This document shows positions 47,801-63,980 of a stretch of DNA of 64,000 nt, piece by piece. The position numbers and the translations under genes are program-made. This DNA comes from Paludibacter sp. GTDB lineage: Bacteria > Bacteroidota > Bacteroidia > Bacteroidales > Paludibacteraceae. Location: positions 124,001 through 188,000 of the forward strand of contig JAQTTH010000006.1 of NCBI GenBank assembly GCA_028710895.1, given 5' to 3'. Position 1 is the stretch's first letter, and each line of letters opens with the position of its first letter. The notes below the pieces were generated by a model. That model was given only the letters and a program-made list of their open reading frames with translations, had not been told where the DNA came from and made no database searches.

Positions 47801-49228
47801 ATGACAAGTATTTTAGCATCCTTCTTCCTTTTATTGTATATCTACACAACGATAAGTATCATATCGGTGCTTTTGTTGGAGAATCGTAACCCGGTGAAAT
47901 CGCTTTCCTGGTTATTGGTACTTGTTTTTCTTCCCATTTTGGGCATGTTCTTCTACCTGTTATTCGGACAGGATTACCGCAAAAAGAAAATTATCTCAAA
48001 AAAAAGCATTCGTCGGGTTATTGACAGGCCTGTAGCATCCTTTGACATCGACAAACTCGAAACTCTTATACAAAACGAGAGTCACCTAAAGCTGATCAAC
48101 TTACTTTATAAGAATAATGAATCGGCTTGTTATGCTAACAATAAAATTGATATCTATTCCACCGGAGAGAGTACATTTGAAGCACTCTTCGAAGCCATTC
48201 GAAATGCAAAAGACCACATACACATACAATTTTTCATTTTCGACGATGACAAAATATCTAACCAACTGCGTGAGTTGTTGATACAAAAAGCCAGGGAAGG
48301 AGTATCTGTACGAATGATTTACGACTATTGGGGAAGCTTCAATCTCTCGAAGGAATATATGAAATCGTTGCACGATGCCGGAGTTGCCACCGGGCCTTTC
48401 CTGCCTTTTCGGTGGAAAATTTCGATGAGCAACAAAATCAACTACCGCAATCACCGAAAACTTGTTATTGTAGATGGTAAAATCGGATTTACCGGTGGTT
48501 TGAATGTAGCCGACAGGTATATGTATGGAAATAACCTGGGTATCTGGCGCGACACTTTTGTGAAGTTCGAAGGCTCAGCCGCACATGGGTTGCAACTATT
48601 ATTTATGATTGATTGGTTTTTTGTAGACCAGAACCTACTTGAAGGTGCAAATTATTTCCCCGAACCTCCAAAATTCGGGAATAATCTCGTTCAGATCGTC
48701 AGCAGCGGTCCCGACACCGACTGGGAATCCATCATGCAGGGCATTGCCGCTGCTATTATGTCGGCCACCAAAAGCATATACATCCATTCACCTTATTATA
48801 TGCCTACCGAACTTATTACAGGTTGCATCGAAATGGCGGCATTGAGCGGCGTCGATGTTCGGTTAATGATTCCAATGAAATCGGACTCAAGGCTGTCGGA
48901 TGCCAGCACTTTTAGCTATCTGGGCAAGTCGCTCGAAGCAGGTGTGCGGGTTTTCCGATACAAAACAGGCTTCCTCCACAGCAAAGCCATTGTGATTGAC
49001 GATTATATTTCCATTATCGGCTCTACAAACCTCGACGAACGAAGTTTTGACCAGAATTTTGAAGCCAATGCATTTATTTACGACTCCGAAACGGCTCCTA
49101 CACTCAAGAAGCTATTCGTGCAAGACATGGAAAACAGTGAAGAATTGAGCCTTGAATCGTGGTCGAACCGCAGGCGGAGGCAAAAACTCAAAGAATCATT
49201 CGCACGTCTCTTCAGTCCGTTGATGTAA
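47801..49228 (+). CDS. cls: Cardiolipin synthase (phospholipase D family)
   Basis: 475 residues. It joins two phosphatidylglycerol molecules into cardiolipin at the inner membrane. Two N-terminal helices (SILASFFLLLYIYTTISII and LSWLLVLVFLPILGMFFYL) form a PLDc_N anchor. Two HKD motifs follow: NHRKLVIVDGKIGFTGG and HSKAIVIDDYISIIGSTN. A frame extension to a TTG at 47768 exists; the ATG at 47801 gives the standard start. Basic C-terminus RRRRQKLKESFARLF. Confidence 0.93.
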   Translation: MTSILASFFLLLYIYTTISIISVLLLENRNPVKSLSWLLVLVFLPILGMFFYLLFGQDYRKKKIISKKSIRRVIDRPVASFDIDKLETLIQNESHLKLINLLYKNNESACYANNKIDIYSTGESTFEALFEAIRNAKDHIHIQFFIFDDDKISNQLRELLIQKAREGVSVRMIYDYWGSFNLSKEYMKSLHDAGVATGPFLPFRWKISMSNKINYRNHRKLVIVDGKIGFTGGLNVADRYMYGNNLGIWRDTFVKFEGSAAHGLQLLFMIDWFFVDQNLLEGANYFPEPPKFGNNLVQIVSSGPDTDWESIMQGIAAAIMSATKSIYIHSPYYMPTELITGCIEMAALSGVDVRLMIPMKSDSRLSDASTFSYLGKSLEAGVRVFRYKTGFLHSKAIVIDDYISIIGSTNLDERSFDQNFEANAFIYDSETAPTLKKLFVQDMENSEELSLESWSNRRRRQKLKESFARLFSPLM

Positions 49229-49325
49229 TTTTCAACCCGAAAGTGTCAACTTTAAGAGAAAATCAACGCCCAAACACTTTTCAAAATTGATTCTTTTTAT
49301 TACTTTTGTGTCACTAAAAAATCAA

Positions 49326-49401
49326 CGGGATGTAGCTCAGCCCGGTTTAGAGTACTGGTCTGGGGGACCAGTGGTCGCAAGTTCGAATCTTGTCATCCCG
49401 A
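49326..49401 (+). tRNA. tRNA-Pro (anticodon GGG)
   Basis: Acceptor CGGGATG pairs with CATCCCG, discriminator A. The anticodon loop CTGGGGG carries GGG, and the T-arm is GCAAGTTCGAATCTTGT. CCA is not encoded. The gene marks the boundary between core genes and the accessory block to its right, but no integrase or duplicated 3' end is visible. Confidence 0.95.
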
Positions 49402-49413
49402 CCGTTGAAAATG

Positions 49414-49445
49414 AAAGACTTACATTAATTTGTAGGTCTTTTTTA
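49414..49445 (+). terminator. Terminator after tRNA-Pro
   Basis: AAAGACTTACA / TGTAGGTCTTTTTT hairpin with a T run. Confidence 0.75.
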
Positions 49446-49608
49446 TTTTCAAACATTACACAAACATTACACAAAATAGATATTTAATTACAAAAAAATA
49501 TAATTTGATATTAGTGTGATTGATTTCATGCCTACGCTTTTAAATGAATAACTTCCTTGTTATTCGAAATACTCCATCCATCTTTCTGAATCTCAATAAG
49601 CATTTTGT

Positions 49609-49645
49609 GAGCCCTAGTGATTTCATCACTAGGGCTTGTTTTATA
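49609..49645 (+). terminator. Hairpin terminator before the lysis-type cassette
   Basis: AGCCCTAGTGAT / ATCACTAGGGCT hairpin followed by TGTTTTA. It lies about 200 bases after tRNA-Pro with no gene between, so it may end an untranslated transcript or insulate the following cassette. Confidence 0.6.
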
Positions 49646-49720
49646 GCATCAAAAAGCATCGTTTAGCGTTGTTCATGTATTTATTACACAGTTGATTGAC
49701 TTGTACATTTACAAGAAAAA
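49645..49720 (+). repeat. Leader/promoter repeat, copy 1
   Basis: Begins AGCATCAAAAAGCATCGTTT and continues to TACATTTACAAGAAAA just before the holin-like gene. Copy 2 is at 51026-51102. Both contain a TAnATTTA -7-like box (49704-49711 here). Confidence 0.75.
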
Positions 49721-49729
49721 ATCAACTGT

Positions 49730-49957
49730 ATGAAAAAAGTATTATTCAAACTGCCTGATTGGTGGAAAGCTGAAACTCCTGTTTTGGCTCGTTTCTTTCA
49801 ACTTATCTCCAGTGCCATTGCTGCACTTCCATTGTATTACGCTGCGTTGCCAGCGGAGTTTAAAACAGCTATTCCGGACAGCTATCTGAAGTACATTGCT
49901 ATTGCCGGTGGCGTGTGTGCATTTATCCTCCAATTCTTCAACAAGAAACAATCATGA
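49730..49957 (+). CDS. Small membrane protein, holin-like
   Basis: 75 residues with two hydrophobic segments (PVLARFFQLISSAIAALPLYY and YLKYIAIAGGVCAFILQFF), a short charged C-terminus and no signal peptide. It overlaps by four bases (ATGA) an M15 peptidase gene. Position before an endolysin-like gene and size suggest a phage holin; I cannot assign a holin family. Confidence 0.55.
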   Translation: MKKVLFKLPDWWKAETPVLARFFQLISSAIAALPLYYAALPAEFKTAIPDSYLKYIAIAGGVCAFILQFFNKKQS

Positions 49958-50382
49958 ACAAACTAGGAAAATACTTCTCACTGGAAGAATTGACAGTAAC
50001 CCATGAGAACCTGGACAACACCCCCGGGCCGGTACAAATTCAAAAGCTGAAAGAACTAGTCAAAAATATTTTGGATCCACTCAGGGAAATGATTGACGAG
50101 CCGATAGCCGTGAACTCAGGTTTCAGAACATTAGCAGTAAACAAAGCCATTGGCGGGGCTCAAAAGCCCATTAGCCAACATACCAAAGGCGAAGCTGCGG
50201 ACATAGAATGTTTTGATAATGCAAAGCTATTTCAAACTATTCGTGACCACTTTCAGTTCGACCAGTTGATTTGGGAGAAAGGAAATGACCGCCAACCCGA
50301 CTGGGTACATGTAAGCCTAAAAAGCAAAGGAAACCGCAACCAGATACTCAAATATAAAAATGGAGAATATATACAATTATGA
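49954..50382 (+). CDS. M15 family D-Ala-D-Ala carboxypeptidase/endolysin
   Basis: 142 residues from the ATG at 49954, which overlaps the previous stop. Peptidase M15A fold: NSGFRTLAVNKAIGGA, QHTKGEAADI (metal-binding His and Asp), then WVHVSLK with the last metal His. It lacks a signal peptide, as phage endolysins do, and would cut peptide cross-links of peptidoglycan once let through by a holin. Its stop overlaps the next start by four bases. Confidence 0.85.
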   Translation: MNKLGKYFSLEELTVTHENLDNTPGPVQIQKLKELVKNILDPLREMIDEPIAVNSGFRTLAVNKAIGGAQKPISQHTKGEAADIECFDNAKLFQTIRDHFQFDQLIWEKGNDRQPDWVHVSLKSKGNRNQILKYKNGEYIQL

Positions 50383-51005
50383 AAAATTCAAACAGCCTTT
50401 TTAAAATCATAGCGGTATTTCTGACACTGATCATCTATTCAGTGTTTGTATTTCAGAAATGCGATTATAAGCAAGAAACACCGCAACCCGCAACAATTGA
50501 CCAGCGAGACAGAAACGAGTCAAAAGAAGATAGTTTAAACACTGCCAGAGCCACTGTTTTGCTTTGTCAGAAAGATAGTACTATTCAAACACTAAAGCCA
50601 AAACTTGCGAAAGAAAAAGCCAATACAGCTACTCAAAAAGCTGAAGCCAACAAACAACATGTTCTAAACGACACACTCCAATCCCGATTTGAAAGAGGTA
50701 AGGACCTGAGCACTTGCGAAGATCTTATCCGGGGTTTAAAGTTTGAAATAGTTGAAAAGGATAGTGTTATTGAAAGTCTCGATTCTGAGATAGAAAACTA
50801 CTCCTGCGAAGTGAAAGAACTGGAGGAGAAAGTGGATATTCAAAAGGGTGTTATCGACAGCAAACAAAACCTGATTGCCTGCAAAGATTCAACCATAAAC
50901 TTTTACAAGGTTCAAAAGAAAGAAACTGACTTGTGGAATAAGGTAAGAATCAAAGTTGCTGGAGTAATCATATTAATTGAAACTATAGGATTGATTTTGA
51001 AATAG
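50379..51005 (+). CDS. Coiled-coil membrane protein, spanin-like
   Basis: 208 residues: an N-terminal transmembrane helix (IIAVFLTLIIYSVFVFQKC), a long charged coiled coil (about 40-185) and a C-terminal helix (VAGVIILIETIGLILK). An Rz-type spanin has the first two parts, and its place right after the endolysin fits. The second helix is unusual for Rz. I do not recognise a family. Confidence 0.45.
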   Translation: MKNSNSLFKIIAVFLTLIIYSVFVFQKCDYKQETPQPATIDQRDRNESKEDSLNTARATVLLCQKDSTIQTLKPKLAKEKANTATQKAEANKQHVLNDTLQSRFERGKDLSTCEDLIRGLKFEIVEKDSVIESLDSEIENYSCEVKELEEKVDIQKGVIDSKQNLIACKDSTINFYKVQKKETDLWNKVRIKVAGVIILIETIGLILK

Positions 51006-51025
51006 ATTTATTGTATTGGCTGAAT

Positions 51026-51102
51026 AGCATCAAAAAGCATCGTTTAGCATTATTTATATATTTATAACACAGTGGTTTGTCGCTGTAAATTTACAACAAA
51101 AT
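51026..51102 (+). repeat. Leader/promoter repeat, copy 2
   Basis: AGCATCAAAAAGCATCGTTTAGC again, then a conserved ~75-base stretch ending TAAATTTACAACAAAA before the 51134 gene. The two copies differ mainly at scattered single bases, as expected of a duplicated promoter. Confidence 0.75.
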
Positions 51103-51133
51103 TATTAGTACAAACATTTAAAGACTTACAACT

Positions 51134-51940
51134 ATGGCCAGACAATTAGGACATGTAAAGTACAAAGGTACAATCGGCGAGATTCGCCATTTCAAGATTA
51201 AAGGTATGACTGGCAACTTTGCCGGATTAAAGGGTGGTGCAACTGGTGAGCAAATCAAGAATGATCCCGGGTTTGTCAGAACCCGAGAAAACATGAATGA
51301 GTTTGCTGCTTGTGCTATTGCGGGTAAATCTGTTCGCGTTGGGTTAAACATGCTCATGAAACAAATGAGCGATGCTCAGCTGACTGGTCGATTGACTGGT
51401 ATCATGAAAAAAATCAATCTGGAAGATCAGACCGAAGCTCGTGGTTACAGGGCAATTTTAGTTTCGACTCAAAACAAGTATTTGATTGGTTTGAATTTCA
51501 ACAGAAACTTCAGCTTTGATAGTTCGTTCATTGCTCCGTTTGAATTAACTGCCAATGTTGACCGCAACAGTTCAACCTTGACAGTTCCGGCATTTAGTCC
51601 GGCAAAATCAGTGATTGCCCCTGCCGGTGCCACTCACTTCCGATTGATTAATGCTGTGTCTGTGATTTCAGATTTTGCATTCAATGCTACAACCGGAATT
51701 TATGAACCCATCCAGCCGGAACTGAATGAAGTATCAAATGTAGCCTACTCGGCATACCTTGATATTAAACTGGACATTGCAGCTCCGACAGTCATTGCCA
51801 GTGCTCTTCCGGGAGCTCCTGAAATGAATGACGATGTAACAGTGTTGAACTCGGTTGGTATTGAATTCTATCAAAAAGCCGGTAACGATTACTACCTGTT
51901 GAATGCAGGTCACGCATTGAAGATTCAAAGCACATTCTAA
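51134..51940 (+). CDS. Hypothetical protein, Bacteroidota cassette type
   Basis: 268 residues, no signal peptide or transmembrane helix. A basic glycine-rich start (YKGTIGEIRHFKIKGM) is followed by a helical stretch with GKSVRVGLNMLMKQ and a strand-rich C-terminal half (alternating FELTANVDRNSSTLTVPAF, SAYLDIKLDI). The layout recalls the DUF6266-type proteins, which share a short G-x-x-G/basic N-terminus, but I cannot confirm membership. It has its own leader copy and terminator, and it is probably expressed in parallel with the lysis-like genes. A virion-like or DNA-bound structural role is possible; unknown. Confidence 0.6.
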   Translation: MARQLGHVKYKGTIGEIRHFKIKGMTGNFAGLKGGATGEQIKNDPGFVRTRENMNEFAACAIAGKSVRVGLNMLMKQMSDAQLTGRLTGIMKKINLEDQTEARGYRAILVSTQNKYLIGLNFNRNFSFDSSFIAPFELTANVDRNSSTLTVPAFSPAKSVIAPAGATHFRLINAVSVISDFAFNATTGIYEPIQPELNEVSNVAYSAYLDIKLDIAAPTVIASALPGAPEMNDDVTVLNSVGIEFYQKAGNDYYLLNAGHALKIQSTF

Positions 51941-51964
51941 AACCAGTACCTGGTATTAATTAGC

Positions 51965-51995
51965 GAAAGGGCGTTCCGAATGGATCGCCCTTTTT
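51965..51995 (+). terminator. Terminator after the 51134 gene
   Basis: AAAGGGCG / CGCCCTTTTT hairpin with T run. Confidence 0.85.
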
Positions 51996-52121
51996 CATTT
52001 CTGGGAATTAAGGTGGACTTATAGCTGAAACATCATGAGTGCACTTATGTAGCCTTTATGTAGGGATTTTGTATGACTTATCCATTACTTGAGTATCGTT
52101 TGATTATTTGCACACATCACT

Positions 52122-52188
52122 CGGAAAACGGGCAATAACTTTTTGGGCCGTCCCACCGAGCCCGAAAAAAGTTATTCTCGTTTTTCCG
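52122..52188. other. 67-nt imperfect hairpin
   Basis: The outer arms are CGGAAAACG / CGTTTTTCCG. The inner arms are AATAACTTTTTGGGC / GCCCGAAAAAAGTTATT, with an 11-base loop (CGTCCCACCGA) and small internal bulges. It lies just past the 3' end of the minus-strand 52219 gene. It is longer and more structured than a normal terminator and could be a recombination, replication or RNA element. Confidence 0.7.
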
Positions 52189-52218
52189 CTGAAGCTAACT
52201 AATGCGTGCAAGTAGCAT

Positions 52219-52638
52219 TTAGGGAATGTCCTTGTAGAATAGCATTCGCTTAGCATTGGAGATTAAAAGCAAATTTTGCTTATAATTTTTTTCCAGAGCT
52301 TCCAAACTGCGGAGAGTAGAAACTGCTTTTTTAAACTGAGCCGGATTTCCATTGGCTTTATTTAAACCATCCAAAAGGCAAGACTTTACATCCCGCAACA
52401 CTACAAACGGAATAACCGACCCACGCAAAAACGGATAAAAAGCTTTAGACTGCCACAAGCTATAAGCCAACCAATAAAGCTGCTCCTTTTCAAAATCAGT
52501 TTTGCATTGAATAACAAAGCAATTCGGACAGGGAACAGAAAGCGGTTTTCCGCTATTATTTCCTTTGTTTAAAATGAAGAAATGATGCATTGAATAGACA
52601 ACGCCCTGACGGTGTGATTTGATGTTGAAAGTGCTCAT
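52219..52638 (-). CDS. Hypothetical protein, DUF6943-like
   Basis: 139 residues, soluble. The segment FYPFLRGSVIPFVVLRDVK followed by NGNPAQFKKAVSTLRSLEAL and ISNAKRMLFYKDIP is a pattern I associate with DUF6943, a Bacteroidota family found in mobile or accessory DNA. Function unknown. The gene sits alone between a large hairpin and a gene-poor repeat region, which fits mobile-element cargo. Confidence 0.6.
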   Translation of the reverse strand: MSTFNIKSHRQGVVYSMHHFFILNKGNNSGKPLSVPCPNCFVIQCKTDFEKEQLYWLAYSLWQSKAFYPFLRGSVIPFVVLRDVKSCLLDGLNKANGNPAQFKKAVSTLRSLEALEKNYKQNLLLISNAKRMLFYKDIP

Positions 52639-52639
52639 A

Positions 52640-53034
52640 AACTGGAGGATTAAATGGTAAAAACTAAAAGCAGCTGCTGCGCCCGGAAATAATTTTTACC
52701 CACAGAAAAGAGAAAGAAAAAAAGAAGAAGAAAAAAAAGAAAAATATAGCCATCTCTTCAGGCGGACGGATTGGGCTGTCAAGGTTTTTGGGAAAAATAC
52801 TACCTGAAGCTTGCGTAAGTGTGGAGATTTTTTCTCAAAACACGAAGTGCCTGACCTTTACTGCCCAAAGCGTGGGTCTGTGTTGGCCGCCTTATCTTTG
52901 CTAGATTTTTTATTTTTTTGTCGGTAAATATTACACTCAAAAAGTCCTTGTTGTATTTGTCTTTTTGAAATTTGATTTTTGAATCCTTTTGGAAAAAGAA
53001 ACCATACCAAAATAAAACCAAAAGGATTCTCTCC
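52640..53034. other. Gene-poor region with purine tract
   Basis: No convincing gene. A run of A/G only (AAAGAGAAAGAAAAAAAGAA and on, about 52708-52745) is followed by unique sequence up to the first copy of the ~305-bp element. Minus-strand open frames here are low-complexity and lack plausible starts. Confidence 0.5.
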
Positions 53035-53340
53035 ATTGGGGCTAACTCGACGCAGAAAATAAAACATACCGCTGGAAATGCGTTGGAAAAAGGCTTGGGT
53101 AGCGACTGACTGAATGGAGCTTGCGGAATGGAAAGGAAGGAGACTACCGAAGCTGTGCGGTGCTGAGGTGTGTGCATGAAATAAAAGCGGAATGAAATGT
53201 AAGGGTTCGGAGTGAGGTACGAACGTAGTTCCTGGAATGTAATGGGCTTGAATGAATGCATATACCGCAAGCACATGGTAATTAACTCGATATGTTTTTA
53301 GTTTTCTGCACAACTAATGGGTGGTGGGGAAATATTGAGG
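53035..53340. repeat. ~305-bp direct repeat, copy 1
   Basis: It starts CATTGGGGCTAACTCGACGC and ends in AACTAATGGGTGGTGGGGAA. It shares its whole length, at roughly three-quarters identity by eye, with 53587-53890. Conserved islands include ATGGAGCTTGCG, TGCAAGCACATGG-like and TTTTCTGCACAACTAATGGG. No shared open frame is intact in both. Confidence 0.8.
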
Positions 53341-53586
53341 TCTTAAATCAAACACTTTCACAAAGTATTTTGGTATGGGAATGGGGTTCACCACAACCCC
53401 TGGAGTGCCAAAATGTTTTGTATCCACTGTCCCCATTGGAAAACCTGTTATGGTTTTCATTGCTACCCGAAATTTATCTCAATGAAAACTATAAGTGGTT
53501 TTCGGGGCTTTATTCTCTGGTTGGCGGAACGCACAACAACGCACCGATAAGGTGTAATTACTTCCCGCTCTACCTTTAGGCGATTA
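53341..53586. other. Spacer between the two repeat copies
   Basis: 246 bases without a recognisable gene or structure; it starts where the two copies stop being alike. Confidence 0.5.
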
Positions 53587-53890
53587 ATGGGGCAAACTCG
53601 CCGCAGAAATGAAAAATATACCATTGGAAATGCGTGGGAAAAGGGCTTGGGGAAAACGGAGTGAATGGAGCTTGCGAAATGGAAATGAGTATTTCCCGAA
53701 GCCGCGGGGTGCTGAAGTGTATGATTGGAATGAAAGTGTAATGAAGTATCAGGGGTCAGCGTGAGGAACGAACGCAGCTCCTGGAACGAAATGGAGCGAA
53801 AATGGAAATCATATACTGCAAGCACATGGATAATCAACTCGATATGTTTTTTATTTTCTGCACAACTAATGGGTGGTGGGGAAATCTTGA
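53587..53890. repeat. ~305-bp direct repeat, copy 2
   Basis: Second copy, about 550 bp after the first, same orientation. A short hairpin AGGAACGAACGCAGCTCCT corresponds to AGGTACGAACGTAGTTCCT in copy 1. The stem-forming outer triplets are kept, and a T-T mismatch becomes an A-T pair, so RNA structure may be conserved. Confidence 0.8.
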
Positions 53891-54201
53891 GGCTCTTCGG
53901 GCAACGGAGCGGGGCAAAAGCGTTGATCTTGTGCGGATATTATACATAATGGGGTTATGGGCTTCCCTATTGCTTTGCCTTCAGGCAAGGGAATGACCAT
54001 TAACTACATGTTATGTATAATAGCTTTGAGTTATTTTTTCTGGCGCATTTCAGGCACGGTGGTGGCGGTTGGAGTGCCTGATTTCTTTTTTGCTCTTGTG
54101 GGTTGATTGAAACAGTGGTTTTGAAAAAACAACACTGTGAATGTGTAAGGATTGCAAAAAGTGTGACAGAAAAAAACAACAGCAGAGTGGATTGTGGGGA
54201 G

Positions 54202-54257
54202 GCAGGCAAAAAGACTGTGCAAGCCCAGAGGTACGAGGGGTGAGGATTTTTGCCTGC
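54202..54257. other. Hairpin with perfect 11-base arms
   Basis: GCAGGCAAAAA at 54202-54212 and TTTTTGCCTGC at 54247-54257. The wider context GAGGCAGG...TTGCCTC extends the symmetry. The arms surround a G-rich loop (GAGGTACGAGGGGTGAGG). Not an ordinary terminator for any gene I see. Confidence 0.55.
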
Positions 54258-54270
54258 TGGGGATTGCCTC

Positions 54271-54904
54271 GGCGGAGCTGTCCTTAATGAACTATCAGGT
54301 GAAACCTGACCGCTTCCAACCGAACTTTTTTTCCTTTCGGATTTTATACCTATTTCTCAGACAAACCAGATTTTTACATTTAGATTTCAGAAAATACCCC
54401 TTGGTTGCGGAGTTGCGGTTGCGGAGGGCATCAAATCCTTTACCATAAAGGATCCTATCGATTTTGTCCCGCAACTAAACTGAATTTGTTTTGGATTGTA
54501 ATTTTATTTTTGTTGCGGTGTGTTTCTTCTGAAAACCTTACTAGTAAAGCTTTTTAGCGTATTTTGACCGCAACCAGGCAATTTCCAAGATTTAGTGTTA
54601 ATTCAGTTGAAGTGATTCAAACAAAAGGTTGTGCAAAAAATGGTGCAATTAATCAAGTTTTTTCTTGCGAATGACAAATTTTGTCGCAAATAGATCGAAT
54701 CAGCACAAATATCAGCGCACATAAAGTTATTCGGTCTGTTTTTTCTCATCTTCCAGAGCTTTGTCAAAATCGTCTTTGGACTTTTGACTGAAATGTTTAT
54801 TGCTAAACTGTTTCAGCATATTTTGAACAAAACAAAACAATTTACGTTGTCACTAATGTCGAATTATTTTCAAAAGCAATATTATAAGAAAAAACGAATT
54901 CTAA
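54271..54904. other. AT-rich gap with a tiny minus-strand frame
   Basis: No convincing gene. A minus-strand frame at 54727-54819 reads MLKQFSNKHFSQKSKDDFDK then ALEDEKKQTE (30 residues) with even charge spacing. It could be the tail of a lost gene. GTTGCGGA-like words recur at 54401-54428. Confidence 0.3.
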
Positions 54905-56488
54905 TTACGAGTTTCTAAAGGCCCAATAAATTTTGGGAAAACCTGCAACAATTTTCCTTTTCTCGTCTAAAATTCTTTTATTTGGATGAAGACCTTGTAA
55001 AACCATATGAATATCGTTTATTAATGCCTGTGTACTTGCAAAATATCCATGTCCAAGCAAACCTGTATCTACTTTTGAAGCATCAACTGTATCAATACCA
55101 TCAATTACAATAATATTCTTACCGCCATCTCCAGCTCTTGGATAATTGTATCTAAGTTTTTTTGATGCAAATAAAGCATTGTCTTTCTTCGATGCGTATA
55201 ATGTTAATCTAATGTCGCTTTTTATAGCAGGCATTATCTGATTGACAAACACATCCTTATCAATATCCGGAGCAGCTAATATAATCTGATTAATTATTTT
55301 ATTTGGATAATTACCTTCGATTTTTAATTTTTCTAGAGCCTTAGTTAAAACCACATTTCCCATACTATGAGCAATAATGTGCAGCTTATTTATATCTCCA
55401 TTAGTAAGTAATTTTATAAAATCACATAAATATTGTGATGAGGCGTCTGCAGTAGAGCAATCTGCCTCGTAACCTAAAAGATTCCCAACCGATGGCCAAG
55501 AAAAAGCTGTCACAGCACCTTTAAAGTTTAAATCGAAACCTAACTGCGCTGTTCTCATGAGCGCTTCTTTAAAGTTTACATTAAACCCATGAATAAACAA
55601 CAAGACGTCCTTATCAGTAGAATTAGCTAATTTTCTTTTTAAAATATCAATAAAATTTAATTCAGCTAACTTTTTAGTTTCTAATACTGTAAAATGTTTA
55701 TTTTTACTTTCTTCAAAAAATAAATTAGAAAACCAATCAGGTCTTTCAATTTTACCTGTTTTATGTGAGGATGGTATACTGACTACACTTGAACCTAAAT
55801 GTAATTTAGTGTCTCTTCTATTCGCGAATTGAATTTCATCCAAAACCGATTCTACTATTCTGTTTGTACCAAAAAGGATTTCGTATTTATGATATTTATT
55901 TTCATCTATATTGGAAGAACTACTTTCAAACTCAGATGTTATTAATCCAGATCCATCATAAGAATCTGGTTCTCCAATAGAAAAGTTAACACTATTTAAA
56001 CCACCCTTACTTTTTTCATTTCTAATTACACCACCTTTTTTATTTAAATTGATTCGAGATCCTGAAATATACATTCGAGACAAGCGACTTAAATTTGGGC
56101 TTCTACTTAATTTACTATCTGGCTGGTTTATTATTTCCAAAAATTCATTTACGTCAATATCAATATTTACATTTTTTTCTATTTTAATTATTTTCTCTAA
56201 ATTTAACGGTCCAGATTCGACTTTAATTTTATCAGAACCTAATCTTATAGATGCATAATATCTGGACTTGGGTTTGGTTGACATTTTTCTCTTGTATGAA
56301 AGCGGCTCAATATAACTAGTTGATATTTTGACAACTCGTCCATTTCTACGCAATATTGCTTCATGTCTTTTATTGCTTTCCACTTTTAAATAGATACTCT
56401 CGTATCCGGCATTAATCATCTTTGAATACAACTGTTTAAATGCAACAGTAGTATTTTTTTCATTATTAACCATTACAAGTGCTTTCAT
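54905..56488 (-). CDS. DUF900-type alpha/beta hydrolase, predicted effector
   Basis: 527 residues, no signal peptide or membrane helix. Residues 200-527 are a DUF900 alpha/beta hydrolase: entry segment EILFGTNRIVES and FANRRDTKLHLGSSVVSIP, oxyanion region LLFIHGFNVNF (His300), nucleophile elbow AHSMGN (Ser375), Asp408 in LAAPDID and His480 in LLGHGYF. Residues 1-195 are a separate region I do not recognise, with a strand-helix-rich first part and a Ser/Asn-rich linker. It is the last gene of the GTPase operon, 25 bases after the trypsin-like gene, where effectors usually sit. Likely an esterase or lipase; target (membrane lipid, or other) is unknown. Confidence 0.85.
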   Translation of the reverse strand: MKALVMVNNEKNTTVAFKQLYSKMINAGYESIYLKVESNKRHEAILRRNGRVVKISTSYIEPLSYKRKMSTKPKSRYYASIRLGSDKIKVESGPLNLEKIIKIEKNVNIDIDVNEFLEIINQPDSKLSRSPNLSRLSRMYISGSRINLNKKGGVIRNEKSKGGLNSVNFSIGEPDSYDGSGLITSEFESSSSNIDENKYHKYEILFGTNRIVESVLDEIQFANRRDTKLHLGSSVVSIPSSHKTGKIERPDWFSNLFFEESKNKHFTVLETKKLAELNFIDILKRKLANSTDKDVLLFIHGFNVNFKEALMRTAQLGFDLNFKGAVTAFSWPSVGNLLGYEADCSTADASSQYLCDFIKLLTNGDINKLHIIAHSMGNVVLTKALEKLKIEGNYPNKIINQIILAAPDIDKDVFVNQIMPAIKSDIRLTLYASKKDNALFASKKLRYNYPRAGDGGKNIIVIDGIDTVDASKVDTGLLGHGYFASTQALINDIHMVLQGLHPNKRILDEKRKIVAGFPKIYWAFRNS

Positions 56489-56513
56489 ATAATGTTTTTG
56501 ATTACAGATTAAA

Positions 56514-57533
56514 CTAGATAACTTTACTTGTTATAAACTCAATTATTTTGTTAATATCAATTCCTTCATTTCTATACTTGGAGTCAGTTATAATAGGCTC
56601 ATCTGTTTTACGAACTCCTCCACTGTGATGAAGAGCAACAACCTCCCATTGCGAATTAAAGACAGGCGAACCTGATGACCCAGGCATAGTATCTGTTAGA
56701 TATTGAACTGTTCTATTGGTTGTATTAGTTACAATATTATGATATAATGCAAGTTTTTTAAATTGGCCTGCGGGATGCTGAATTATATTGACAAAGTCAT
56801 TTCTCTGTACATTTACTTTATCCAATTGAATATAGCCATATTGATCAATTTCTTCTGAATGAATCAATTTAAAAATTGTAACATCAAGATCTGCAACAGG
56901 AGAAGTGTACCAAGGTCCTTTGATATCAATATTGAAACTCTTTGAAGCTTTACTATTACCGTAAATATCTTCTTCGTAATCAAAAATTATTTTTGTAAAG
57001 TTTATATCACTCTTATCGCTTATAACATGATGATTAGTCATGAAAAACAATTCAAATTGTCCTTTTATTTTGAACAGGAATCCAGTACCAACTTTACTTG
57101 ATGGACCCTTTTTTATTTCGACTTTACCCACAGAGCGACTACTTACGATCCCTTTTTCTAGAAAACTAATAGGCAATAGTGAGTCATTTTTATATGTAAG
57201 AACTTCAAGCGTTTCTGCACTAATCTTCTCCCACTTGCTAATTTCATCTAGTTTAGGGCTTAATAAGTATTCAATATCAGAATGATTTAAAGCTGTTTTA
57301 AGAAATGGACTATCTGGATACTTAATCAGAACTGCATTAATCAAATCATCTACTTTAGAGCATTTTCTAGCTTCATTAATAACGCTATTCCAAATATCTA
57401 ATGCATTTCCATTGAAATTTATCATTTGAGTTCGTAAGCCAGCTGCATTTACGAACTTTGAAATACCGTCATGATGTGGTACTAAATCACTCAATACATC
57501 ATTTAGCTGAGTAAGTCTTGGCGTCCATTCCAT
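56514..57533 (-). CDS. EAD1-trypsin-like serine protease fusion
   Basis: 339 residues. Residues 1-88 match the helical effector-associated domain EAD1 (MEWTPRLTQLNDVLSDLVPH, AAGLRTQMINF, IWNSVINEARK, LINAVLIKYPDSPFL). Residues about 125-330 are a trypsin-like protease with triad His169 (FMTNHHVIS), Asp217 (VADLDVTIF) and Ser287 (MPGSSGSPVF). In conflict systems EAD1-trypsin proteins are recruited by a matching EAD partner and then cleave a target or an effector. The gene lies six bases after the 57540 gene, which ends in a similar small helical domain. Confidence 0.88.
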   Translation of the reverse strand: MEWTPRLTQLNDVLSDLVPHHDGISKFVNAAGLRTQMINFNGNALDIWNSVINEARKCSKVDDLINAVLIKYPDSPFLKTALNHSDIEYLLSPKLDEISKWEKISAETLEVLTYKNDSLLPISFLEKGIVSSRSVGKVEIKKGPSSKVGTGFLFKIKGQFELFFMTNHHVISDKSDINFTKIIFDYEEDIYGNSKASKSFNIDIKGPWYTSPVADLDVTIFKLIHSEEIDQYGYIQLDKVNVQRNDFVNIIQHPAGQFKKLALYHNIVTNTTNRTVQYLTDTMPGSSGSPVFNSQWEVVALHHSGGVRKTDEPIITDSKYRNEGIDINKIIEFITSKVI

Positions 57534-57539
57534 AATCTA

Positions 57540-58694
57540 TTAGTTTCTAAATATTATTGGGTGTTCTACGATCATTCTATCTATTAGTTCCTCAGTCTTG
57601 TTTTTCTTAATGCATAAATTTATCAGTTGAGCAGACATAGATGCAGCATTATCATCAGCTAGAAATGCAGGGCTAATCCCGATTCTTTGTGACAATGCAG
57701 AAATAGATACACTTGAGTTGTAGTAATATGGCAAAACATGAATTAATTCATCTAATGTTGTATGATTGAAGCTTGTATTTCGAATTCTTTGAAAAATCAA
57801 ATCTAATTTTGCTTTTTCTGAAGGTCTTTGCATATCAGCAGGTGAAATGTACTGAGTTTCAAATGTTGGATTTGTAATGTCAGGGTTAATTAAATAACTT
57901 CCATTTCTATTTTCTTGTTTAGCATAATCATTAAAGAATGTTTCAATTTCTCTTCTTTGATTTTTCACTTTTGAATCAAGGGATAGATATACAAAGTCGT
58001 ATAAAAGAGCATCTTTCGATTGATATTCCATTATTGAAAACGGATGATATAATACTGGAACATTTTCATTACGTGAAATTCTTATTTGATCAATTGAATC
58101 GATTATCAAATATCCTCTAGGAACTCTTTCAGTTGAAGCAAATCTTTTTGCCCATGGGATATCCATCTGTTGCCATTTTGCCTCTTCAATATCTACAACA
58201 TCACCTTGCTTAAGATTTAAAAGATCATAAACTTCAGGAAAAATTAGTATCGGGATACCAACTGAGGCATTACAACTTGATGTTATAGATATCAGTCTTT
58301 TTCCTTCATCATTCGGAGGCAAATGAATTGTTCCAATTCCACCTAAAACTTTCTTTGATTTCCCAGGAGGGTGAAATACAATCCAATCTTTACTTTTAAT
58401 AGCAATATCCTGTTCTGAATGTTTACGAATTTCTGCAGAATATTCAGTCCAGAAAAGTCCAGGAACTCGAGCAACCCAATCACTCACGACAAAATGATAA
58501 AATGAAAATTTCTTATTCCAAAACTCGTTTTGATTGTTCGTAACTTTATACCAGAATTCTTTGTCTTCAATAATATAACTCTCAGAACAAAAATTAGCAT
58601 TATGTTTATCGATCACGAGCTCATTTTTTACAATTGAATAGTTTTCAATTGTTTCAATAATCTTCACTCCTTTATATGCATCTAAATTTAACAT
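57540..58694 (-). CDS. Unrecognised conflict-system protein with C-terminal EAD-like domain
   Basis: 384 residues, soluble. I do not recognise the main body. Residues ~1-130 are aromatic and strand-rich (EFWNKKFSFYHFVVSDWVAR). Residues ~130-175 contain LLNLKQGDVVDIEEAKW, the kind of strand-turn seen in small barrels. Residues ~195-290 continue GYLIIDSIDQIRISRN. The last ~85 residues (LDELIHVLPYYYN, LSQRIGISPAFL, QLINLCIKKN, LIDRMIVEHP) look like an effector-associated/Death-like helical domain, ending like EAD1 (I-x-x-hP). It is 5 bases from GAP1 and 6 from the EAD1-protease, so it could link the GTPase module to the protease. Confidence 0.6.
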   Translation of the reverse strand: MLNLDAYKGVKIIETIENYSIVKNELVIDKHNANFCSESYIIEDKEFWYKVTNNQNEFWNKKFSFYHFVVSDWVARVPGLFWTEYSAEIRKHSEQDIAIKSKDWIVFHPPGKSKKVLGGIGTIHLPPNDEGKRLISITSSCNASVGIPILIFPEVYDLLNLKQGDVVDIEEAKWQQMDIPWAKRFASTERVPRGYLIIDSIDQIRISRNENVPVLYHPFSIMEYQSKDALLYDFVYLSLDSKVKNQRREIETFFNDYAKQENRNGSYLINPDITNPTFETQYISPADMQRPSEKAKLDLIFQRIRNTSFNHTTLDELIHVLPYYYNSSVSISALSQRIGISPAFLADDNAASMSAQLINLCIKKNKTEELIDRMIVEHPIIFRN

Positions 58695-58699
58695 GCGGT

Positions 58700-61246
58700 T
58701 TAGTTTATATAATTTTTTCTAAGGTTGTATATCAATTTAAATCTCTCATTGGAGTCATAATAGTTTTTCTTTATTTCTTTTAATAGTGAATTCATCGTAA
58801 TATCTTTAAAGAAGCCTCTCCTAAGTTTAGTTAGAAGGTCATGCCAAACTTCAACGCCAGTTGAATTGATTAGTAAATCAGATTCCTTACCACCAGCATT
58901 ATTCCAAATCGTTTTGATAGCTTGTCCATTAGGATAAAGATCAACAATTATATCTTCGGTACTTTTCCACCATTCATCGGTTGGTATTTTTACGTTTGCG
59001 ATAATTCCGGAAAAAGCTAATGCTGCTCTGGTTACAAAATCCAGTAGTTGATGACATTCTTCAAGTGCAAATTTCCAATTATTGTATTTGGATGATTTAT
59101 TATAAATAGTTGTGGCTACCGAGTTATATCTTCTTGAATGCACTAATCTTCCTAATTGAACAGCATCTGTTGCATCAATTGATTGTGAATGATTATATAC
59201 GTAATCTTTCAAAATGCGTTCAGGTAATTGGGAGTATTTGGAGAATATAGGTAAAACATATCTGACTTTGTTTCTATTATAATATAAGAATGTCGATATT
59301 CCATTTGAGATTATGTAATCAGATAATATTTTATCATCTGGGACTATATATGTTGAATTTATACTTAATAATTCAAGCAACTTACTCGATGTTTTCTCTA
59401 AGAAACCTTTCTTTGATTTTAAAGATAATTTTTGCCATAAAATATCCCTTCTCTGATAGTCCAAGATATTGCCATATTCTGATTCGCTAATTTTTTCTAT
59501 GAGATCTTTATTATATTCTTTTCCATCAATAATTAAATCGAATAACTGAAAAACCTTTTCTATGGGATTGAGTACACCATCATTCAATTTATTACCTTGA
59601 TTTATAGCACAAACCCAGATTTCTTGCCAATAAAAATTTGAGACATCTATGTTATTTAGAAGGGAATAGTCCTTGTGACAATACTCTCCACACAAATTAA
59701 TTAATCTCTTATCTCCATTGATTATTGTAAAACTAATAATTGAACATGGTGGTATCCCTTCAATAATAATTTTAATACCACCATTAAAATCTTGCTGTTT
59801 GTCAAAAACTAGTTGTTCCTTTAACGCTTTTTCAAATGGATATTCTAAAATCATCAATTTAGCGTGAAACTTGAGCCAATTCCTTTCAATAGCAAAAATA
59901 ATTAAACCCTTAAACTGTGATTTCTTGTATGAGTTAGCTAATTGAGAAACAAAACAATTTTCGGAATCCGTAGATTTATCAATAAAAGTCTCAATAGAGC
60001 CTAATATTGAAAAGTCAAAGCGCAACCAATTAAATATTATAGTTGCTTCTTTGACAGTAATCTTTGATAAAAAGTTTATTAATTGGCTTTGTATGTTACG
60101 ACTCCACCAGCTATCCTTGTTTGAATCATTTATCTTTTCAAATATTGGGAAGAAATTTATTCTTGAAGTTTCAGCTTCTGTAAATAAGTATTTATCTAAC
60201 CATATATTTATCGCTACTCTTAATTGATTCTCACTATTTTCAAAACTTTCTGTTTTAAAGTTTCTTACCAAATTCAATTCCGATATTTCACAAGAAGTAA
60301 TTAATTTGCAAATTTTATCTAATACAATATTCTTAAAACGAATGCCTTTTTGTTTATCCGGAGAGTATTTGGCAATAACCTGAGATAGTGAGTTGATTTT
60401 TTTTATATCAATGATAGAATCAATATTCTCGAAAGTATTTAGCACAATTCCGACTTTATTTATTTCATCTTTGGATAATTTATTTGTTTCAAGTGCTTTC
60501 TCAAATTTATTTATTCTTTGACGAGCATTGGAATCGCCAGCTAACAGTTGTTCATAAATTTCCGTAAGAATATAAGTGTCTGTTTTGCGGATCAAACAGA
60601 ATCCTCCACTAATAAATTTACTTTCAATATTTTCAGGTATAGTAATTAGATTAAGCTTTTCTTTAAGGACTGAATCTAAGTTAAAGTAAATGCCGAAATT
60701 AAGTTTTTCCTTTTCTTCAATTGAAAGAATTTGCCAGTATTTTGAAATTGCTAATTCATAATCCTCATCACCTACCCATATAATGGTATTTCCATAGTTG
60801 AGAATACTTACAAAACCATGAATTACTTTGTTAAACCTGTTTAGAAATGACTTAGAACTATCTTGTTCAACACAGGTTTTACTATCAATTTTGATTATAT
60901 CAATTGAACAATTTTTATTAAGTTTTTTTGGAAGGAAATCGAAAATTGCATATAGGTCAACTACATTTATCAAATTAGCCCTTGATATTGCAAAAACGTG
61001 TGAAAAAACTCTACCAGGCCGTACTTCCAGTGATTTATCCGGAAAAGTTTTCATAATTAGAAAATAGTCTTCACACATAAATCCTCGAACAGTTGGCTTC
61101 CAGTGAAGACCACCTATTTGATCTTGGATGTCGGTGTAAAAAGCAATTCTTTTTGCAAGACCTACATCATTGAATGTTGTTTTTATTAAGCCCCATCCAC
61201 CTTTTTCATCCTCACCACAAAGTATTTGATTAATTTCTATTTCCAC
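58700..61246 (-). CDS. GAP1-like GTPase-associated protein
   Basis: 848 residues, soluble. The N-terminus (about 1-160) is a GAP1-N2 domain: INQILCGEDEKGGWGLIKTT, RIAFYTDIQDQIGGLHWKP, RGFMCEDYFLIMKTF, RPGRVFSHVFAI. The rest is a long helical region (GAP1-M/C-like) ending WHDLLTKLRRGFF. GAP1 proteins always accompany the double GTPases of these systems and are thought to control or be controlled by their GTP cycle. Its start codon overlaps the stop of the upstream GTPase gene by one base. Confidence 0.8.
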   Translation of the reverse strand: MEIEINQILCGEDEKGGWGLIKTTFNDVGLAKRIAFYTDIQDQIGGLHWKPTVRGFMCEDYFLIMKTFPDKSLEVRPGRVFSHVFAISRANLINVVDLYAIFDFLPKKLNKNCSIDIIKIDSKTCVEQDSSKSFLNRFNKVIHGFVSILNYGNTIIWVGDEDYELAISKYWQILSIEEKEKLNFGIYFNLDSVLKEKLNLITIPENIESKFISGGFCLIRKTDTYILTEIYEQLLAGDSNARQRINKFEKALETNKLSKDEINKVGIVLNTFENIDSIIDIKKINSLSQVIAKYSPDKQKGIRFKNIVLDKICKLITSCEISELNLVRNFKTESFENSENQLRVAINIWLDKYLFTEAETSRINFFPIFEKINDSNKDSWWSRNIQSQLINFLSKITVKEATIIFNWLRFDFSILGSIETFIDKSTDSENCFVSQLANSYKKSQFKGLIIFAIERNWLKFHAKLMILEYPFEKALKEQLVFDKQQDFNGGIKIIIEGIPPCSIISFTIINGDKRLINLCGEYCHKDYSLLNNIDVSNFYWQEIWVCAINQGNKLNDGVLNPIEKVFQLFDLIIDGKEYNKDLIEKISESEYGNILDYQRRDILWQKLSLKSKKGFLEKTSSKLLELLSINSTYIVPDDKILSDYIISNGISTFLYYNRNKVRYVLPIFSKYSQLPERILKDYVYNHSQSIDATDAVQLGRLVHSRRYNSVATTIYNKSSKYNNWKFALEECHQLLDFVTRAALAFSGIIANVKIPTDEWWKSTEDIIVDLYPNGQAIKTIWNNAGGKESDLLINSTGVEVWHDLLTKLRRGFFKDITMNSLLKEIKKNYYDSNERFKLIYNLRKNYIN

Positions 61247-62070
61247 TATAATGCCTCTAATATTAGTTCGGTAATATCGTTTGTTTTTTCGCCATCTTCT
61301 TTTATTATATAGCCAAAACTTTCAGGACCTTCAATTTGATATTTCTCCTTGTTCTCTACAGTATTTAAAGGAAATTCCAATGCAGACAAACCAATAAATT
61401 TTAAACACTTATTATCCCAGTTGGTTACAATAAAATTAAGTAATAACGGTAATCTTGATTGCAAAATATCTTTTGGTTTATCATTCGTATTTAACTCATC
61501 CCAACAAGTTAGAACAATAGTAAGTTTAATTTTAGCATTTCTTAAATGATAATTATACCCTTTGTGGTGAAGTAGTAACTGTAAAAGCTCAATTAGCGAT
61601 GATTGATCTGACAAACTATTGTTATCTGTACTTTCTCCTTTTATAATTGGATTTTCTTTTGATATTTCCATGACGCTAATGTCGAAAGAGTGGTTTATCC
61701 CATTCAATCTAATGAAAAAAATCCAGTTATCACTGGTTCTTATTGCATCAGTCCACGTTTTATCAACTTCTCTTGTTTCAACTATATTATTTACTTGCTC
61801 ACCAGCATATTCGGGGCATCTGAGGTCTATTTGAACTCCTTCATTAGTTTGGATAGGCAGATAAAAGTATTCAGATTTTTGAGTGTTAGTAGGTCCTGGC
61901 TCATCACCATTCGCTAATGCTTCACGTGCGCCAGATATCGGAGATAAATCATCAACTGTCTTATATAAAATGAGTTTGCTTTTTTTCTTTTGTAATCTGG
62001 AATAAAATTGTGTAAGAAAAACAGTTTTGGATGAACGTGGTCTTCCTATGATAAGTAGTTGTTTATTCAT
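61246..62070 (-). CDS. Divergent GTPase, DO-GTPase1 type
   Basis: 274 residues. It begins directly with the P-loop LLIIGRPRSSKTVFL (G9-T16). Switch/G3 reads DLRCPEYAGEQV, where the usual DxxG Asp is displaced. The G4-like LTCWDELN has Cys-Trp before Asp rather than NKxD. These features fit the first GTPase of the paired (double-GTPase) conflict systems in the TRAFAC class. It overlaps its neighbours by four bases (GTPase 2 upstream) and one base (GAP1 downstream), so expression is tightly coupled. Confidence 0.75.
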   Translation of the reverse strand: MNKQLLIIGRPRSSKTVFLTQFYSRLQKKKSKLILYKTVDDLSPISGAREALANGDEPGPTNTQKSEYFYLPIQTNEGVQIDLRCPEYAGEQVNNIVETREVDKTWTDAIRTSDNWIFFIRLNGINHSFDISVMEISKENPIIKGESTDNNSLSDQSSLIELLQLLLHHKGYNYHLRNAKIKLTIVLTCWDELNTNDKPKDILQSRLPLLLNFIVTNWDNKCLKFIGLSALEFPLNTVENKEKYQIEGPESFGYIIKEDGEKTNDITELILEAL

Positions 62071-63026
62071 TTTCCTTTATAATTTAAAAAAAAGTCATTC
62101 TCGTAATTATTACTTATTTCTATGTTTTTCTTAGAAGGAAGAATGATTGACGCTAATAGCCAATCAATAACTTTCAAATTATTTTTGTGTACTATTTCGT
62201 CCGGATTTTTAGAAGGAAAGTTACTTATATCAATTTCTGTGTAATTGGAGAAAATTTCCTGCAGTTCCTTTTGAAGTGATTCTTTAATTTTAGGATGAAC
62301 ATCGGCTTTTAAATCTGCTTTTGACCACACAGCAATTACAGGTCTTTCTTTTAAATCATTATTCAGCATTTCTGCAATGTCAATGATTTCTGTTTTTGCA
62401 CTATTTTTTCTTGTGATTAAGTCATCGCAATCAATAAACAATATGAACCCATTCGATCTATCATATATCCACTGTGCATTTTTAGCATTGGCAGCATCTT
62501 TATTTTGAGACCAATTAGTGAACACTTCACCGGATGCATCCGTAAGTAATACATCTTTCAATTGATCCTCATTGTTTCGCAAGGCAAAATGTAATAATCT
62601 CAAATAATTTGTTGGAGTAGGTTCCGGTAAAGACACTTTATTCTCCTTTACTTTCAATTTGTTATACAAATTATCCCAACCAATTATTGTTTTAGTACCT
62701 GCAAAGCCATAATTAGAAAATTCCTGTCCATTTAACAATAGAGTGTAAAGCATTGATAAAAAAGTAGTTTTTCCGGCCTTTGCCTTTCCTGCTAGTCCTA
62801 TAATTATTGGAGTATTGCGATAACTAATTTGGCTAACGTCGTCTATTTTTAAAACATCGCCTGACCAAACTTGACTTGATTTAGAGCTATTTCTTGATAG
62901 TTCTTTTGGAACCTTAGTTTTAAGTGTATTGTTTTTTACCCAATTTGGGCATTCAGTATGATTATCATGTCCGTCATGACATGAAATTGGTGCTGGACAA
63001 TCTGGATTTGAACATTTACCTTCCAT
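62067..63026 (-). CDS. Zinc-ribbon GTPase, DO-GTPase2 type
   Basis: 319 residues. The first ~30 hold a Cys/His cluster (CSNPDCPAPISCHDGHDNHT then EC) that could bind zinc. The GTPase domain starts near 75: P-loop GLAGKAKAGKTTFL (77-90), G3-like LLTDASGEVF (Asp163, Gly166) and G4-like VWSKADLK in place of NKxD. It is the second GTPase of the pair, encoded first. The start is three bases after the GASH-type gene. Confidence 0.8.
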   Translation of the reverse strand: MEGKCSNPDCPAPISCHDGHDNHTECPNWVKNNTLKTKVPKELSRNSSKSSQVWSGDVLKIDDVSQISYRNTPIIIGLAGKAKAGKTTFLSMLYTLLLNGQEFSNYGFAGTKTIIGWDNLYNKLKVKENKVSLPEPTPTNYLRLLHFALRNNEDQLKDVLLTDASGEVFTNWSQNKDAANAKNAQWIYDRSNGFILFIDCDDLITRKNSAKTEIIDIAEMLNNDLKERPVIAVWSKADLKADVHPKIKESLQKELQEIFSNYTEIDISNFPSKNPDEIVHKNNLKVIDWLLASIILPSKKNIEISNNYENDFFLNYKGK

Positions 63027-63029
63027 GAT

Positions 63030-63980
63030 TTATTTTGAATTTATGGAGTTTAATACCTGCAAATCATGAAATAACCAAAGTATAAAGTCAGATAATGAGA
63101 TTTCTATCGTTTCTGAGAGACCTACAACGACCTTAAATTGATTCATTGTAAATTTATCCCAAATATATCCAGAGATAAAATGGAATAAAGAAACTCTTTC
63201 AACATCATATGTTGATTCTTTAATTATTGATTTTAAAATATCTTTAGATGTGTCTATTTGCTTAAGTATTTTTGAGAATGTTAGTATTTCGTCTTTATCA
63301 ACTATTCCCCTATGCGTTTCTTTCAAGAAATAATCTACACTTGAAGGAAATATACAAGGTACAAATGAAACGTAATCCTTTGCCATAATAAGCTGTAATA
63401 AACCTATAGGTTGTCCTCGATAGCTATCCTTAATTGATGGAGAGTAGCAAGATTCTTTCCACCAAAGAAGTTGAGTTCTCATTTCTAATATTTTATTCCG
63501 TTGGATAGTTTGTTCGAATGTTTGTTTAAATATTTTGTCAATAACCTCTTGAATTTTATTTTGAATAATATTTATTTCGTCAGTTTGTTTTTTTAGAGCT
63601 TTATTAATAATTTCTGCTATTCCTCGACTTGCTCTATCAGAAAAGAAGTTAGGCCATATTGCCGCATTATGACTTGGATATTGTGGATTTTCCCCGCCAT
63701 CACCTAAACCCGAATGTATTGATGCTGCTTTTAAGTGATTTTGAAGCTCTACTTTATCTATACTTACTCCTGTAATAGTTTTAATTTCAATTGATAGTTC
63801 CTGAAATTTATAGTCAAGGTGTATTGCCCAGGTTTTAGCAGCATCTTCTTCGATTTCATTTCCTATATTAGTCAAAAAATTTATTATCAATTCTCTTTCT
63901 TTTCCAACTAATTTATAGTATTTCTGAATATTCCTTCCAGTAAGCCAAATCTGATTTGCTATATTTATATCTTTTGACAT
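63030..63980 (-). CDS. GTPase-associated helical protein (GASH type)
   Basis: 316 residues, almost wholly helical, no membrane segment. The central LLWWKESCYSPSIKDSYRG and the flanking LQLIMAKDYVSFVP match GASH (GTPase-associated system helical) proteins that are encoded beside double GTPases. Role unproven; probably a scaffold or sensor for the GTPase pair. Immediately upstream (63986-63988) is an in-line stop codon, so it is not the first gene of the operon. Confidence 0.7.
   Translation of the reverse strand: MSKDINIANQIWLTGRNIQKYYKLVGKERELIINFLTNIGNEIEEDAAKTWAIHLDYKFQELSIEIKTITGVSIDKVELQNHLKAASIHSGLGDGGENPQYPSHNAAIWPNFFSDRASRGIAEIINKALKKQTDEINIIQNKIQEVIDKIFKQTFEQTIQRNKILEMRTQLLWWKESCYSPSIKDSYRGQPIGLLQLIMAKDYVSFVPCIFPSSVDYFLKETHRGIVDKDEILTFSKILKQIDTSKDILKSIIKESTYDVERVSLFHFISGYIWDKFTMNQFKVVVGLSETIEISLSDFILWLFHDLQVLNSINSK

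Follow-up and report, generated by a model that had tools for sequence, protein, structure and literature searches.

Why does one stretch of a Paludibacter genome carry the same non-coding unit of about 300 bp twice? By profile boundaries, R1 (53037-53337) and R2 (53588-53889) are diverged tandem direct copies of this unit within the window, the whole stretch of 64,000 nucleotides that was analysed. They are offset by 551-552 bp and are 76-94% identical in four ungapped blocks (D1-D4), which bears out the first-pass annotation of an element of about 305 bp, present twice in direct orientation about 550 bp apart with conserved islands. The pair is not a product of chance because it is present at six further places of the same genome (E down to 3e-282) and R was detected in 23 of the 100 relatives searched, all of one genus, which named relatives place among Paludibacter-like Bacteroidales. 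The surrounding 2.3-kb region had been described as gene-poor. It is poor in genes, but it actually holds a structured module of about 1.5 kb, H-R-S-R-T (52771-54322), whose order is fixed on one strand in profile searches: H at 52771-52902, the R units, and T at 53898-54322. The features of the module and the stretch after it are the following.

52771..52902, + strand: H (head), a conserved structured motif AAUACUACC...GGUGGAGAUU followed by a triloop hairpin
52893..52900, + strand: candidate Bacteroidota-type -7 box (TAnnTTTG), TATCTTTG
52982..53029, + strand: 12-bp hairpin directly 5' of R1, GAATCCTTTTGG / CCAAAAGGATTC, seen in the sequence
53037..53337, + strand: R1, predicted structured RNA domain, copy 1 (profile boundary, structure, covariation)
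53350..53582, + strand: S, the long form of the spacer between R1 and R2 (about 90 or 12 nt in other arrays)
53588..53889, + strand: R2, predicted structured RNA domain, copy 2 (profile boundary, structure, covariation)
53898..54322, + strand: T (tail), a strongly structured 3' domain ending in hairpin TCAGGTGAAACCTGA (54295-54309)
54370..54594, + strand: tailC, a stretch of GGTTGCGG repeats common to island left ends

About 40 loci from Paludibacter relatives have one to five R units each, in the order H, R, S or a short spacer, and T. The spacer between R units is the long S of about 235 nt, or about 90 nt, or about 12 nt.

A protein-coding role for R is rejected, as no frame is conserved among 76 units. 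None of the 76 is open on the + strand. On the - strand the three frames are open in 6, 10 and 15 units respectively, and none is shared by all units. The earlier statement that the two copies share no open frame thus extends to homologous copies and to both strands. The gaps in the alignment of units are mostly not multiples of three.

Instead, R has the marks of a folded RNA. Among 54 R sequences the structure has 69 pairs with 90.9% standard-paired cells, a measure favoured by deriving the structure from the alignment that was also used for counting; the telling measure is therefore the double changes, which occur in 34 of the 69 pairs (25.5 in shuffles) and in 277 cells (88 in shuffles). 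The covariation is 0.258 compared with 0.141 for shuffled alignments and at most 0.09 for slid versions of the structure. In a phylum-wide set of 106 sequences, ranking the covariation of 43,660 column pairs against a tree-based null of our own that is simpler than R-scape places all of the top five, and nine of the top ten, inside the predicted structure. Trimming of gap columns is needed, with RNAalifold giving only 12 pairs on the untrimmed alignment. A small hairpin with one compensatory change had been noticed before, and it is real yet understated: the whole of R is structured, with a closing stem that pairs its two ends and inner helices that hold most of the double changes.

The strand can be read from the tolerated mismatches. 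When helices are selected without the use of G.U pairs, the + strand shows more G.U than A.C in R (158 vs 91; 28 vs 9 by position) and in H (17 vs 4), and in T the numbers (56 vs 41) are not significantly different. One pair in R is distributed as GC 24, GU 17 and AU 11. The excess points to + strand RNA for R and H and does not cover T. These sequence comparisons give good support for R as a + strand RNA. The proposal that selection acts on DNA or RNA and not on protein is supported by the covariation and by the excess of G.U over A.C, as is the structured RNA then offered as one candidate. R has a long conserved covarying structure and no conserved frame, as expected of a large non-coding RNA (ncRNA) of mobile elements.

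No family in Rfam 15 matches R or the module when positions 49000-56000 of the window and 11 other loci are searched; only tRNAs reach the gathering score, and the weak E-value matches are at chance level to unrelated models. No account of DUF6943, the neighbouring gene family, or of such an RNA was found in the open-access literature, and this large RNA of Bacteroidota islands is apparently undescribed so far. GOLLD and ROOL are large, elaborate bacterial RNAs on mobile elements, often near tRNA genes, whose job is not known (PMC12286853). They are the closest in kind, sharing with the present RNA the large structure and the mobile-element setting near tRNA genes. Membership in GOLLD, ROOL or OLE is excluded by the lack of an Rfam covariance-model match at the gathering score. 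In contrast to GOLLD and ROOL, the present RNA has a core domain in one to five tandem copies, and its setting is Bacteroidota islands with p268 and DUF6943, not phage genomes.

A candidate promoter box follows the head core, and a terminator-like hairpin ends the tail. In 41 of 55 loci (11% in shuffles) a TAnnTTTG box follows the H core at a distance of at most 90 nt, with identical spacing in 24 loci; no clear -33 partner was found for it. H may be part of the transcript or may be a separate element upstream of it. H keeps an asymmetric internal loop between covarying stems, and in Flavobacterium it is followed by a T run. At the other end, T is nearly palindromic. Similarity stops sharply just past its terminal hairpin TCAGGYGAARCCTGACCGC, and the DNA beyond is unrelated in most loci.

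Some loci depart from this layout. Solo T ends are few and occur in loci L011, L059 and L078. In L011, a hipBA-like pair (4866-2690, - strand) has a full T end on one side and a solo T end on the other, both pointing the same way, as though T had been the site where a segment was gained or duplicated. A T copy on contig C28 (18709-19073, - strand), with no R detected and beside SusC-like fragments, is probably a remnant. A second H core (AAUACUACC...GGUGGAGAUU) is found about 0.9-2.6 kb past the first in L086 (8898-9015), L087 (12356-12475), L098 (8046-8143) and L099 (4562-4671). R and T were not detected in these four loci, which possibly encode a different RNA with the same module.

The genes on both sides of the module are as follows.

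49326..49403, + strand: tRNA-Pro(ggg), the integration target (ARAGORN)
49453..49475, + strand: 23-bp arm-type repeat ACATTACACAAACATTACACAAA, recurring before attR at the far end
49730..49957, + strand: holin-like protein (DUF7940 / phrog_1356)
49951..50382, + strand: Peptidase M15, endolysin-like (phrog_894)
50379..51005, + strand: protein with a TM segment and coiled coil, no family above the cut-off; by its position, perhaps spanin-like
51134..51940, + strand: p268, a conserved 268-aa element protein
52219..52638, - strand: DUF6943 protein (Pfam PF22105, E 5e-48)
54905..63980, - strand: cargo reading toward the RNA (DUF900 hydrolase, EAD1-trypsin, GAP1-N1/EAD1, DO-GTPase1, DO-GTPase2, GASH)

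A sequence of about 78 bp located 5' of the holin-like gene (49643-49719) recurs 5' of p268 (51024-51101) with 81-85% identity and is probably a shared promoter or leader.

Bacterial genomes yielded at least 427 relatives of p268, the listed ones from Bacteroidota, and p268 has no sequence match in Pfam, PHROG, NCBIfam or PDB. Its AF2 model is confident (pLDDT 89). The N-terminal half is helical, the C-terminal half is a beta sandwich, and no RNA-binding fold could be recognised. No clear PDB or viral relative was listed for the model; VIA reaches no more than Z 4.5, with C2 and Ig-like sandwiches. No function is therefore deduced from the model, and a capsid role is rejected. A phage origin is likewise rejected, p268 having no match in viral contigs or phage records and R no exact-pattern match in viral contigs. 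The phage and plasmid searches gave one weak plasmid match (27%). A third p268-like subfamily (about 120 bits over residues 1-245) is present in many copies per genome, in G005, G009, G024 and others, and some of its carriers lack R. In two Paludibacter bins (L086 and L087) p268 has an identical in-frame stop at codon 157.

For the confident model of DUF6943 (pLDDT 92), the best structural matches are, with few exceptions, recognition domains of HsdS or methylases. The model aligns with the target-recognition half of HsdS at VIA Z 8.3 (132 of 139 residues, rmsd 3.7), although by the tool's own note a Z near 8 may mean merely a common arrangement, and the Foldseek E-value is only 1.5e-3. The uniform top matches and the near full-length coverage make a role in DNA recognition plausible, as judged from the model. 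Unlike HsdS of type I restriction, DUF6943 is a single half-unit with no adjoining HsdM or HsdR and has a fixed place beside the RNA.

The arrangement of these genes is widely conserved. Both in the window and in related loci, the module lies 3' of p268, or of its 250-aa relative p250, and of the divergent DUF6943 gene. The order p268, DUF6943 (- strand), H, R, T is kept in Flavobacterium, Chryseobacterium relatives, Pedobacter, Labilibaculum and other Bacteroidota. Iterated Paludibacter profiles found H in 40, R in 27 and T in 50 of 80 p268 loci, many of the loci sampled being fragmented metagenome bins. Within the genus, R occurs together with p268 or p250 in 16 genomes, R alone in 7, p268 or p250 alone in 5 and neither in 20, a clear but imperfect co-occurrence. 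Among 60 loci scanned, a few of which are the same genome fetched twice, 19 of the 21 tRNAs lie at most 1.5 kb upstream of p268 or p250. In a second group of loci the R module comes directly after the final tra genes of a conjugative element (TraN-like, TraQ; L012). No p268 is found close by there, which means that a local partnership with p268 is not obligatory.

This distribution bears on whether the module is simply a cis-acting leader or insulator, an untranslated, terminator-rich zone separating convergent operons and having no role in trans. Its place between a + strand operon and the - strand cargo would suit such a zone, as would the hairpin ending T and the Flavobacterium T run, but a terminator needs far less than a covarying structure of about 1 kb in which 300-nt domains are duplicated, and R arrays are also found behind tra operons. 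This explanation is therefore considered improbable.

The module is the left end of an island of about 59 kb in tRNA-Pro, with defence genes beside the RNA. The att core of 46 bp (49357-49402), inside tRNA-Pro, is repeated exactly at the far end of the island (right end of contig C3, start of C37). These contigs join there, since they overlap by about 127 bp (C3:232424-232550 and C37:1-127) and the overlap ends inside a partial tRNA-Pro; the att and arm repeats at the joined end give the size of the island. Its far end encodes a tyrosine integrase, HTH proteins, DUF3987 and DUF6371, the last being no general partner as it is found in only 1 of 14 other genomes. R had also been suggested as a pair of recombination sites, which is not supported, the att core lying at 49357 and the 23-bp arm repeat at 49453. 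The suggestion that it forms the ends of a mobile element fails for R itself but comes near the truth, in that the module belongs to the left end of an integrative island.

Two more islands of like layout are present on C8 and C22 of the same genome, where islands reach 43-62 kb and carry three of the four DUF3987 genes. Exact matching gave no att repeats for these two, only arm-type repeats. In Pedobacter cryophilus an element of 18.2 kb in tRNA-Val has 47-bp att repeats and 23-bp arm repeats, and contains SNase, p268, DUF6943, HTH, R, T, methylases and other cargo, DUF3987, two HTH genes and an integrase. The integrases of the elements have the domains Arm-DNA-bind_5 and SAM_5. With att repeats of 46 and 47 bp derived from the 3' half of a tRNA and a tyrosine recombinase, these are tRNA-targeting integrative elements. 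No relaxase or conjugation genes are seen among the ORFs examined in locus L171 and in the C3 island, and no packaging or capsid/terminase gene was recognised in the Pedobacter element. No reverse transcriptase is found among the ORFs inspected around the window array or in the Pedobacter element, and a retron is rejected for this reason.

The cargo in the window is a GTPase conflict system, with an AbiE pair next to it beyond the window. Defence genes are often found 3' of T and read toward the RNA: Qat (L051), AbiE, methylases, and the GAP1/GASH/double-GTPase genes of the window. The next genes after T are not defence genes in L013, L049, L065, L069 and L078. An integron-like platform, with the T or H ends as recombination sites for inserting defence cassettes, could account for the unrelated DNA that begins abruptly after the T hairpin and for the solo T ends, which in L011 flank the hipBA pair. 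But these ends are few, cargo is not generally flanked by them, and the island recombinase targets tRNA. Such cassettes are set aside because the att sites, with the arm repeats, were found at the island ends, and this reading is very unlikely. Nor are the elements integrons as such, having integrases with Arm-DNA-bind_5 and SAM_5 and residing in tRNA genes.

The repeats of tailC are also found at the other end of the islands. Diverged GGTTGCGG-rich stretches lie beside the far-end DUF3987 gene at C3:227383-227565, C22:319603-319753 and C8:67709-67874, and are a possible origin or binding array. H-R-T itself could be a site at the DNA level, a replication origin or a packaging or transfer site that folds as single-stranded DNA, with R as iteron-like units for the DUF3987 protein carried by the islands. 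The near-palindromic T with no strand bias, the copy number of R varying from one to five and the GGTTGCGG repeats at both ends are in keeping with this. However, tolerance of G.U far above A.C on the + strand in R and H is not favoured by DNA, and the asymmetric internal loop kept between the covarying stems of H and the -7 box 5' of R also speak against it. A DNA-level site ranks second, after a trans-acting scaffold RNA, and is unlikely.

Like tycheposons and like phage satellites such as PICI and PICMI (PMC11389934), the islands integrate into tRNA genes by a tyrosine recombinase and have a replication-type gene and defence cargo, and no full phage or conjugation set is seen among the ORFs inspected. 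They differ in having no recognised packaging or capsid-redirecting gene, in their size, which reaches 43-62 kb here, and in the markers p268, DUF6943 and the RNA, which are new to such a setting. The R arrays that directly follow tra genes, as in L012, resemble Bacteroidota CTn/ICE, whereas the inspected ORFs of the window's island and of the Pedobacter element include no tra genes.

The R repeats are thus probably a tandem domain of a large + strand ncRNA, part of the left-end module of mobile islands integrated in tRNA genes. The best reading is a new family of large structured ncRNA in a little-known family of integrative elements. The locus would comprise H, a -7 promoter box, R(-S-R)n and a structured T with a terminator-like hairpin at its end. 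The conserved left-end module would consist of the lysis-type genes, p268, DUF6943 and the RNA, and the cargo of the islands includes anti-phage genes. As the most likely mechanism, the transcript would fold as a scaffold of several domains and act in trans in the life cycle of the element, much as GOLLD and ROOL accompany phages, with excision, replication or transfer as the favoured steps. p268 is perhaps its partner, extra R copies would add valency, and the divergent promoters may be under the control of DUF6943, whose model is like a DNA-recognition domain. Because p268, DUF6943 and the RNA are constant while cargo and lysis genes change, a role for the RNA in the element as a whole is more likely than one in any single defence system. 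A bolder version is put forward only tentatively: a new RNA class with duplicated domains, spread over the phylum, would assemble with p268 into an RNP, and excision, packaging or transfer in a new family of defence-carrying integrative elements of Bacteroidota would depend on this RNP.

To our knowledge, only a small number of large structured RNAs without an assigned function have been described in bacteria, and every one of them brought a surprise; we also know of no transfer mechanism for many Bacteroidota islands. The present RNA is phylum-wide, is tied to islands with anti-phage systems and has one 300-nt domain present one to five times. p268, DUF6943 and H-R-T are ready markers for detecting such islands. 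An RNA at one end of islands that move among Bacteroidota may help to explain the spread of defence genes, and if it works in the transfer or control of the islands it would give a handle on how defence genes move in this phylum.
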